Shown in pieces: positions 9,675-11,938 of a stretch of DNA of 28,347 bases (positions are counted from its first letter, which is position 1; each line of letters starts with the position of its first letter). Made by a program: the position numbers and the translations under genes. This stretch comes from a virus, in the IMG/VR virus record IMGVR_UViG_3300039050_000041, positions 9,994 through 38,340 of that record, one strand, 5' to 3'. Under the pieces are notes generated by a model. It was not told the origin of the DNA. It was given only the letters and a program-made list of their open reading frames with translations, and ran no database searches.

Positions 9675-9878
9675 TTAGTGTAATATTCTGTCAGTTATAG
9701 GTTCATCATCCGAATAGTGCATAAGTCCTTCTGTCACATAAATGTCAGTAAACTCCCCAATAAGTATTAAGCCATTTGCTTGAGCAGCTTCTTCGGCTTC
9801 TTTAAGGTTAGGTGCGACTATATTAGGTCCTGCATATTTTTTTCCTTGTTCTTCCATCTCAGTCAGATATATCTTCAT
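9675..9878 (-). CDS. Conserved small phage protein, 67 aa
   Basis: 67 residues, MKIYLTEMEEQGKKYAGPNI... The beta strand start, then a helix NLKEAEEAAQANGLILIGEF and a short acidic end DDEPITDRILH give a small alpha/beta look. It contrasts with the strongly basic neighbours. Its ATG lies within the end of the small terminase gene (20-base overlap). Similar short proteins occur near terminase genes of marine phages in my memory. Function unknown. Confidence 0.65.
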   Translation of the reverse strand: MKIYLTEMEEQGKKYAGPNIVAPNLKEAEEAAQANGLILIGEFTDIYVTEGLMHYSDDEPITDRILH

Positions 9879-10272
9879 AGTTTCCTTCTATTGTATTATG
9901 TTTTTCTGGTAGTATAAATAAACCACCTTGAACATTATGATTAACATTTAAGTGTTCTTTTTTAGAAACACCCACTCTATCAAGCAATGTTTGAGCTGCT
10001 TGAAGTTTTACATTTGCTTGAGGAATAGCTGCTTTACCATCCATAATTTCTACGAGCTTAAAAGCAGCTTTAGGAGCTTCCTTTGCGAGTATGCTTCCGG
10101 CTAAATCTACTATTTCTTCTTTTAAACTATTTATTACTTGGTAGTGATTTCCGGCATATCCTGCAAGTTCAGCTGCTAACTTTAAATCCCCTTTAGTTTC
10201 TATGAGGTTATTAAGAAAACTTTGTTGTTTTTCTGTTAAGTTTCTTTTATTGTTGTTAGTTATTAAAGACAT
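9859..10272 (-). CDS. Terminase small subunit
   Basis: 137 residues from MSLITNNNKRNLTEKQQSFL. The N-terminal part has a helix-turn-helix-like segment (GDLKLAAELAGYAGNHYQVI) and the middle is helical (ILAKEAPKAAFKLVEIMDGK... VKLQAAQTLLDRVGV), the classic arrangement of small terminases, which recognise the packaging site and recruit the large subunit. The longer frame reaching 10308 cannot be right because it would start inside the -35 box of the promoter. The ATG at 10272 lies only seven bases after the -10 box, so the mRNA is predicted to be leaderless or nearly so. It is the first gene of the late operon. Confidence 0.8.
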   Translation of the reverse strand: MSLITNNNKRNLTEKQQSFLNNLIETKGDLKLAAELAGYAGNHYQVINSLKEEIVDLAGSILAKEAPKAAFKLVEIMDGKAAIPQANVKLQAAQTLLDRVGVSKKEHLNVNHNVQGGLFILPEKHNTIEGNYEDISD

Positions 10273-10279
10273 GTGTATT

Positions 10280-10308
10280 ATTATAAGAATTATTTTTAGT
10301 ATTGTCAA
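10280..10308 (-). promoter_or_regulatory. Perfect sigma70 promoter of late operon
   Basis: Read leftward: TTGACA at 10308-10303, a 17-base spacer, and TATAAT at 10285-10280, both boxes matching the bacterial consensus exactly. Transcription should start near 10273, which is at or just before the ATG of the small terminase gene. A perfect match implies strong use by host RNA polymerase; an activator or repressor would be needed if the late genes are delayed. Confidence 0.9.
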
Positions 10309-10317
10309 ATATTTTTC

Positions 10318-10346
10318 TTGACAAAAACTAAATCTGTAGCTATAAT
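10318..10346 (+). promoter_or_regulatory. Perfect divergent sigma70 promoter
   Basis: TTGACA at 10318-10323, 17 bases, TATAAT at 10341-10346. The -35 box is 10 bases from that of the leftward promoter, so the two polymerases would compete. Start near 10353. No credible protein gene follows rightward before 11999; the downstream sequence is dense in hairpins, so the product is probably a non-coding RNA. Confidence 0.88.
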
Positions 10347-10352
10347 AGATTT

Positions 10353-10850
10353 ATCGACCCCCCCGGTAAATACCTACCAATACCTCGTAGTTCTTATATA
10401 AACCCGACCAACCCTATTTAACAATTCAAAATCCTGTAAAATGTATGAGAATGTGCATATATACATAGGGGGTGGGGGGTGGCTCTGGCGTACCCCTAGC
10501 GTCTACGTAAGACTTTGAAAGTCTTCAGAGTCCTAGCAAAACTTCACCAAGTATTTTTGTAAAAAATCCTGGTGGTACTGATTAACACTTCCAAGTCTTC
10601 TTAGACTTGTGTAGTAATTAAAACTCAAACTCTATAGAGTTAATCAGAATTTCCAAACCTATCAAATATTACAGCTTATCTGAGCCCTATTTATAGGGCC
10701 TAAGATAGCAACATATATCTTCGGTCGTTTTAAGGTCTCAGAAAGGCTAGAATTAGCTGATAGACCATACGAAACTACGCAAGTCTTCACGCAGTTTTAC
10801 ATGGTCTATAGAAAAGTTGGGATACCCAGAGATTTTGGGCTAGTTATCTT
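10353..10850 (+). ncRNA. Candidate large structured RNA
   Basis: No gene fits this stretch. Downstream of the perfect promoter I see successive inverted repeats: TAGGGG 10466-10471 with CCCCTA 10492-10497; AAGACTTT/AAAGTCTT 10509-10525; CACCA 10545-10549 with TGGTG 10570-10574; an 8-bp helix CTGATTAA 10578-10585 with TTAATCAG 10640-10647 enclosing CAAGTCT/AGACTTG (10592-10609) and AACTCT/AGAGTT (10628-10641); GCCCTAT/ATAGGGC 10684-10699; and a 9-bp helix ATAGACCAT/ATGGTCTAT closing 10760-10809. The 10578-10647 part reads as a multi-branch junction. The 3' end is undefined. Alternatives are an origin, a packaging site, or a long leader. Confidence 0.55.
10811..10830 (+). repeat. 20-base direct repeat, copy 1
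   Basis: GAAAAGTTGGGATACCCAGA, identical at 11741-11760. The core TGGG-ATA-CCCA is an inverted repeat. The two copies flank the leftward two-gene cassette. They could be a protein site, an origin element, or recombination targets. Confidence 0.85.
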
Positions 10851-10854
10851 TAGA

Positions 10855-10885
10855 TAAAAAAAAGGGCAATCCGAAGACTGCCCTT
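10855..10885 (-). terminator. Rho-independent terminator of leftward cassette
   Basis: Read leftward, AAGGGCAGTC and GATTGCCCTT make a 10-bp stem with one G-U pair around the loop TTCG, followed by a T tract. It lies just after the 95-aa gene. It has the same TTCG loop style as the capsid terminator. Confidence 0.85.
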
Positions 10886-10903
10886 AAAAAACTCTGTAGA
10901 GTT

Positions 10904-11191
10904 TTACATATACATTAAGTCGTCTAGGGCTTCGTCTGAGATAACCTTGTTATCTTCGTGCAAAGCTACAGACTCCAAGATTGCTAAAACTTCGTTTTCG
11001 TCTTGGTCGTCAAAAACTCCATTGGAATTTCCGTAAGAGTCGTAGACTTTAACGTGAAATTCTGCACGTAAAGGTTTTTCGGTAACAACTACTTCGTAGC
11101 CATTTCTCATACGACAACGATAACGGCAAACATTAATGTTTGTTTCAAAGTCCGCCACTTGAGTTACTTCGTAAGCTTCAAAGCTTTCCAT
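10904..11191 (-). CDS. Unrecognised 95-aa acidic protein of leftward cassette
   Basis: 95 residues, MESFEAYEVTQVADFETNIN... The first 60 residues alternate in a beta-strand pattern (CRYRCRMRNGYEVVVTEKPL, then AEFHVKVYDSYG) and the last 35 are acidic and helical (DQDENEVLAILESVALHEDN). Cys22 and Cys26 are close together but no full metal site is seen. Start ATG has AGGAG. It is the second gene of a two-gene unit read from the promoter at 11631 and ended by a TTCG terminator. Function unknown; a regulator expressed apart from both main operons is a fair guess only. Confidence 0.7.
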   Translation of the reverse strand: MESFEAYEVTQVADFETNINVCRYRCRMRNGYEVVVTEKPLRAEFHVKVYDSYGNSNGVFDDQDENEVLAILESVALHEDNKVISDEALDDLMYM

Positions 11192-11251: not shown

Positions 11252-11257
11252 GACCAG

Positions 11258-11279
11258 TCAAGCTTTAGCTTGATTTTTT
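11258..11279 (+). terminator. Possible rightward terminator
   Basis: TCAAGC, loop TTTA, GCTTGA, then TTTTTT. Rightward transcripts from 10353 that run through the cassette on the antisense strand could end here. The stem is only 6 bp and it overlaps the end of the leftward 89-aa gene, so the call is weak. Confidence 0.4.
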
Positions 11280-11534
11280 GTAGGCTCTGATAGCCTTCGT
11301 GATTACCGCAGGAACAGATTTCATCTGTAAGTACGCAGTAATTTCACCTGATTTCAGACCAGCTTTGCTGTTCATTTTGTTCAACAAATAACCTCTGAAA
11401 GAGCCAAATTTCATGTCCTCTGGACATTTCTTCAAACTCACGAAGTGAGAACAGACAGCAATCACTTGCTTGTAAGAAGCTTTAGCTTGTGGATTAAATT
11501 CTGCTTTAGCAGTAGTTTCAGTTGTTTTGCTCAT
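11265..11534 (-). CDS. Unrecognised 89-aa basic protein of leftward cassette
   Basis: 89 residues, MSKTTETTAKAEFNPQAKAS... with many Lys and a helical pattern (YKQVIAVCSHFVSLKKC, FGSFRGYLLNKMNSKAGLKS, PAVITKAIRAYKKSS). Net positive charge and small size suit a DNA- or RNA-binding regulator, but no helix-turn-helix is obvious. Start ATG follows AGGAG, which abuts a 6-bp hairpin. It is first in the cassette, with its own strong promoter, pointing opposite to the early genes. Function unknown. Confidence 0.7.
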   Translation of the reverse strand: MSKTTETTAKAEFNPQAKASYKQVIAVCSHFVSLKKCPEDMKFGSFRGYLLNKMNSKAGLKSGEITAYLQMKSVPAVITKAIRAYKKSS

Positions 11535-11740: not shown

Positions 11741-11760
11741 GAAAAGTTGGGATACCCAGA
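11741..11760 (+). repeat. 20-base direct repeat, copy 2
   Basis: Identical to 10811-10830. Here it sits between the 18-base inverted repeat and the three tandem AGTTTTACRT units, suggesting a multi-protein binding region. Confidence 0.85.
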
Positions 11761-11767
11761 CTTTCAA

Positions 11768-11804
11768 AGTTTTACGTAAAGTTTTACGTATAGAGTTTTA
11801 CATG
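11768..11804 (+). repeat. Three tandem AGTTTTACRT(A/G) units
   Basis: Copies at 11768-11778, 11780-11790 (both AGTTTTACGTA) and 11794-11804 (AGTTTTACATG). Two further AGTTTTACAT copies are at 10793-10802 and 10900-10909. Short direct repeats at 12-14 base spacing next to A/T-rich DNA look iteron-like, so a replication origin or regulator array is possible. Confidence 0.6.
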
Positions 11805-11812
11805 TGTGTGCC

Positions 11813-11847
11813 TATATGTGTGTACGTGTGCGTGTACGTACGTGTGT
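11813..11847. other. 35-base alternating purine-pyrimidine tract
   Basis: Strict pyrimidine-purine alternation, mostly TG, CG and TA steps, including ACGTACGT. Such tracts favour left-handed or easily melted DNA under negative supercoiling. A leftward open frame here (11784-11966) is an artefact of the repeat. The rest of 11848-11930 is A/T-rich with no gene. Confidence 0.7.
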
Positions 11848-11938
11848 CTATGCGTTACTATTAGGGGGAAAACTTGATAGGAGTATGCTTTTTCACGTAT
11901 AAAATTTAATAAATAATTATATCGCACACGTTTTGTGC

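Follow-up and report, generated by a model that had tools for sequence, protein, structure and literature searches.

Control region of a relative of Pelagibacter phages HTVC103P and HTVC115P with a conserved promoter pair, a terS-linked element and a candidate structured leader RNA

Introduction

The cos site of lambdoid phages is a conserved, single-copy site with a GC-rich tract and precedes the gene for the terminase small subunit (terS) by ~200–300 bp. The put RNA of phage HK022 is a structured antitermination leader that directly follows an early promoter. GOLLD and ROOL RNAs are often found near phage tRNA genes (PMC12286853).

Here, we analyse a locus that can be compared with each of these systems. 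The window, i.e. the whole stretch of 28,347 nucleotides analysed, is part of a 38.3-kb viral contig (IMG/VR record IMGVR_UViG_3300039050_000041, positions 9,994 to 38,340). Leftward of its control region lie the genes for terminase, portal, capsid and tail, and the rightward genes include those for a primase-helicase, a DNA polymerase and a Cas4-like exonuclease. The nearest isolates by TerS and TerL are Pelagibacter phages HTVC103P, HTVC104P and HTVC115P; the window is a relative of HTVC103P/115P, and the hosts of this ocean virus family are probably SAR11 bacteria. In the ocean, pelagiphages rank with the most abundant viruses, and in the pelagiphage literature that we found, no regulatory RNA and no packaging site is described for the HTVC103P-type group.

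Results

Two perfect promoters diverge from the control region

The perfect consensus promoter reported in the preliminary description (TTGACA-17-TATAAT, 10318–10346, + strand) indeed matches the sigma-70 consensus at 12/12 positions and points into the noncoding region; a second perfect promoter (12/12; 10308–10280, − strand) diverges from it toward terS and the late genes. Related loci were collected with terS queries as three sets. Among 166 distinct related loci, a + promoter matching at least 11/12 positions stands at the equivalent place in 164 (119 of them perfect) and a − promoter of at least 11/12 in 165, compared with 2/143 for the + promoter in a coding control. At the right edge of the noncoding region, no conserved promoter for a leftward transcript was found (a match of at least 10/12 at 200–300 in 13/159 loci).

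Just past the expected start of the + transcript, a GC block is followed by ATA-rich sequence (10363–10383, + strand), and a similar GC block and AT-rich ATA sequence follow the + promoter in relatives, both as judged by eye. At the record end of HTVC115P (MN698247.1), the + promoter is separated from the element described below by a terminator-like hairpin and T run, which would yield a short RNA of ~100 nt.

The terS gene itself (9859–10308, − strand; PHROG 2538, E 8.7e-5; relatives at most 78% identical) probably starts at an ATG at 10272, in frame with the 9859–10308 open reading frame. As this ATG lies only 7–8 bases beyond the −10 box of the gene's own perfect promoter (10272–10308), terS may have a leaderless mRNA, and a similar arrangement is seen by eye in HTVC103P and HTVC115P. 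When the whole region was compared with isolate phages by blastn, the match was to terS only.

A conserved element is tied to terS

Between the + promoter and the stems lies a conserved element (10418–10497, + strand), identified by blastn and by a DNA pattern, that consists of TTAACA, AAATGTATGAGAATGTGCATATATA (10439–10463), a GC tract (10468–10482) and GGCTCTGGCG-TACCCC; that is, an AT-rich part, a ~14-base tract that is G-rich or C-rich according to lineage, and a GGC..CCTGCC core. The interval 10403–10497 is kept in ~60 related loci retrieved through terS and compared by blastn, and a search with the DNA pattern of the element, in which terS was not used, matched ~65 contigs. A terS-like gene lies upstream of the element in 59/66; most of the remaining contigs stop before terS would be reached, and one is a false match. 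In all 13 long records with a match the element is present as a single copy. No isolate phage was matched convincingly with the element alone as query; by eye, HTVC103P-type pelagiphages (MN698242, MN698247) carry a diverged form upstream of terS.

Across loci the GC tract is G-rich in 142, C-rich in 18 and mixed in 12, and because an RNA function would hardly tolerate a switch from G-rich to C-rich, we read the element as DNA rather than RNA. Its constant tie to terS suggests a role in packaging, and the element is perhaps the packaging site, as judged from its sequence and position. Two of the contigs inspected (L453 and L411) end inside or beside the GC tract, and assembly of annealed ends would mask termini. 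Because some lineages have a C-rich tract, priming from an R-loop formed by a G tract was set aside. The PolA proteins encoded by long records that contain the element are similar, and a replication origin is therefore inseparable from a packaging site by module swapping.

Hairpins are in excess in the gene-free region of the window

Consistent with the preliminary description, which had seen about 500 bases without a credible gene, all open reading frames in 10353–10850 are of at most 42 aa. The stems described there are also present at their positions: an 8-bp helix (CTGATTAA/TTAATCAG, 10578–10585 with 10640–10647, + strand) that encloses hairpins at 10592–10609 and 10628–10641, a GCCCTAT/ATAGGGC hairpin (10684–10699, + strand), and a 9-bp helix (ATAGACCAT/ATGGTCTAT, 10760–10768 with 10801–10809, + strand), whose inner hairpin pairs better on the − strand. 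A further hairpin, AAGACTTTGAAAGTCTT, lies at 10509–10525 (+ strand). Most of these individual stems have no alignable counterpart in relatives.

Minimum free energies were compared with those of dinucleotide shuffles. Folding of both strands, as the preliminary description had proposed, gave z −4.1 (+) and −4.8 (−) for 10353–10850, and values for the window were overall between about −4 and −7. The signal is located in 10560–10860 (z −3.9/−3.8), and 10353–10560 is unremarkable in fold energy. Five perfect hairpins occur in 10401–10800, compared with 0.55 in shuffles. The hairpin excess extends from ~10400 to ~11600 and thus covers two small leftward genes; in the remainder of 9.0–13.4 kb it is weak or missing.

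These two genes of unknown function (10904–11191, 95 aa; 11265–11534, 89 aa; both open reading frames on the − strand) encode proteins without relatives in IMG/VR, for which a family search gave a sub-threshold Pfam match and nothing beyond. Their intrinsic terminator (10857–10885, − strand) forms the right-hand edge of the noncoding region; an equivalent is present in relatives of lineages c1 and c2 and in most others with leftward genes. No clear rightward terminator was seen at 10860. A rightward terminator-like site lies between the two leftward genes (11256–11275), at which transcription rightward from 10353 could stop, giving an antisense RNA. A perfect 20-bp direct repeat, GAAAAGTTGGGATACCCAGA, stands on either side of the two genes (10811–10830 and 11741–11760), and the second intergenic region (11798–11860) is GT-rich with alternating purine-pyrimidine tracts.

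Searches of the window against Rfam gave no family at the gathering score, in line with the earlier failure to match the region to a known class; ten relatives gave one tRNA, located elsewhere. The permissive list (E up to 1) contained neither GOLLD nor ROOL and nothing credible, and no tRNA was found in the window.

Pairing is kept in related lineages

In the 340 bp past the element, 164 loci contain on average 3.63 perfect hairpins, about four times the 0.90 of shuffles; a coding control gave 0.44. The excess reaches P 0.05 in 77 of the 164; about half are without excess and many have no hairpin at all. Likewise, the fold z of relatives is strong in some lineages and near 0 in several others. 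In some relatives, L037 and L061 among them, small leftward coding genes ~450–1300 bp past the element are likewise full of hairpins, and the one-mismatch hairpins in those genes favour the coding (−) strand.

Two related lineages preserve base pairing through compensatory changes. For c1, a lineage of 21 sequences in which five helices were named by eye on the basis of L040, the number of cells changed on both sides is 29, compared with 8.5 in shuffled controls (0/500) and 5–15 when the structure is slid along the alignment; in lineage c2 (8 sequences), in which the structure was derived from the same sequences as were tested, 14 pairs are changed on both sides, compared with 7.0 (sd 1.6; 0/500) and 0–4 when slid. 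Members outside model building gave 13 cells compared with 6.6 (1/500). The controls for c1, c2 and the outside members ignore kinship. Hairpin positions and the flanking single-stranded sequence are common to c1 and c2, and the stems differ. RNAalifold predicted no base pair on the mixed alignment A3 because the hairpins are shifted by one column, and a covariance model (R2) was therefore built from lineage c1 alone.

Model R2, the E-values of which are rough, matches members of c2 as well as two further lineages, L059 and L311, at the syntenic position. Its best match in the 28 kb of the window is 10586–10696 (+ strand, 26.1 bits), a weak match (E 0.01; E 2e-4 over 10350–10900) to a structured module common to related lineages, in which the hairpins 10592–10609 and 10628–10641 inside the 8-bp helix correspond to R2 helices.

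Strand tests disagree, and we treat the + strand as favoured for this module. The rightward model scored above its reverse complement in 9/10 distinct outside members from about five lineages (rightward/leftward bits: L311, 39.9/38.2; L061, 36.7/36.5; L034 and L038, 36.4/33.2; L037, 33.4/29.4; L044, 32.8/28.9; L032, 32.4/30.6; L035, 28.0/25.3; L073, 28.1/22.3; window, 26.1/23.8), and was level in L059 (54.8/54.9); members were counted as 10 distinct because L034 and L038 score alike. G-T compared with A-C pairs in aligned helices gave 16:11 and 3:0 for the + strand, which is not significant, and tetraloop identity gave no strand distinction. The mean fold z of relatives is about equal on both strands; the window folds more strongly on the − strand (z −6.8 vs. 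−3.9 for +), and among single mismatches that flank perfect hairpins, 25 favour the − strand and 8 the + strand.

Discussion

Relatives of the window share the promoter, the terS-linked element and, in many lineages, hairpins with preserved pairing, and an undescribed structured RNA is therefore likely. The best explanation, which we hold with roughly even confidence, is that a rightward transcript has the noncoding region as its untranslated leader, which contains an undescribed structured RNA module. From the near-invariant sigma-70 promoter, which faces away from the packaging genes, the transcript would start at ~10353. It would first cross the terS-linked DNA element, a probable terminase recognition site for packaging, and then (~10500–10860) fold into small hairpins, of which ~110 nt (10586–10696) would be a structured RNA module of common descent with those of other HTVC103P-type phages. 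Where rightward genes begin ~350–550 nt past the element, as in many relatives, the RNA would thus be their leader; other loci, including the window, have small leftward genes first, so that the RNA of the window's lineage would be either a noncoding RNA in its own right or an antisense extension. We infer that such a transcript exists and that the pairing acts in RNA, most likely in cis, either through greater transcript stability or by letting RNA polymerase read on. A broader proposal, that a large marine phage group carries a new class of leader RNA in which a transcript crosses the packaging site and a hairpin array either influences RNA polymerase or links transcription with packaging, is speculative and, in our estimate, unlikely.

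The region could instead be a DNA-level control site, mainly a packaging (cos or pac) site, with an incidental transcript and with hairpins that are inverted repeats in DNA; we consider this possible but rather unlikely, and attach the same limited weight to a layout in which terminase would bind the AT-rich element and cut in the region of the GC tract and the GGC..CCTGCC core. The single copy of the element, the presence of terS upstream wherever the contig extends far enough, fold z values about equal on both strands, and a tract restricted in composition and free in sequence and strand, as is compatible with cohesive ends, all suit such a site; however, contig ends are not piled up at the GC tract, and a DNA site alone leaves unexplained both the compensatory changes 150–300 bp from the element and the better fit of the rightward model. 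Template-switch mutation, a described mechanism (PMC8794818), could make or repair perfect inverted repeats during replication without selection, and the covariation would then be only mutational. The hairpins are mostly perfect, vary between lineages and also occur within small coding genes, and two strand tests (fold z and flanking mismatches) show no consistent preference, all in favour of this mechanism; c1 and c2 nevertheless share hairpin positions and flanking single-stranded sequence despite different stems, and the excess is limited to this region of the window. We regard an origin of the hairpins by template switching as quite unlikely.

A large trans-acting RNA similar to GOLLD or ROOL across 10353–10850 would fit a strong promoter followed by a gene-free, structured stretch. 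The first 200 nt are, however, unremarkable in fold energy, the most strongly conserved block switches from G-rich to C-rich, and neither an Rfam match nor a tRNA is found in the window; about half of the relatives also lack a stem excess. By these tests the GOLLD-like class suggested in the preliminary description does not hold up, and we regard an RNA of this kind as very improbable. The more general claim of a large structured RNA survives in part: the near-invariant + promoter, the compensatory changes in two related lineages and a weak R2 match on the predicted strand speak for it, whereas the lack of stem excess in about half of the relatives, the DNA-like behaviour of the best conserved part (10418–10497) and the continuation of the hairpins into coding sequence on the right speak against a structured RNA of that extent. 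Because the near-invariant promoters, the element linked to terS and the covarying hairpins all lie together, cultured isolates such as HTVC103P and HTVC115P offer concrete targets for structure probing, expression analysis and mapping of virion ends.

Compared with known systems, the window resembles GOLLD and ROOL in being a candidate phage-encoded structured noncoding RNA of unknown function (PMC12286853), but differs in the lack of an Rfam match and of adjacent tRNAs, in its shorter structured part, in lineage-restricted hairpins, and in the overlap with a terS-linked DNA element. That element is similar to the lambdoid cos site in its single copy, its GC-rich tract and its distance of ~200–300 bp upstream of terS; unlike cos, it is a candidate site, known from sequence, and lies under a strong promoter directed away from terS. 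The putative leader can be likened by description to HK022 put, as a structured leader RNA right behind a phage promoter, but has more hairpins and covers a longer stretch. The HTVC103P-type pelagiphages (MN698242, MN698247) by eye share terS, the divergent promoters and a diverged element with the window.
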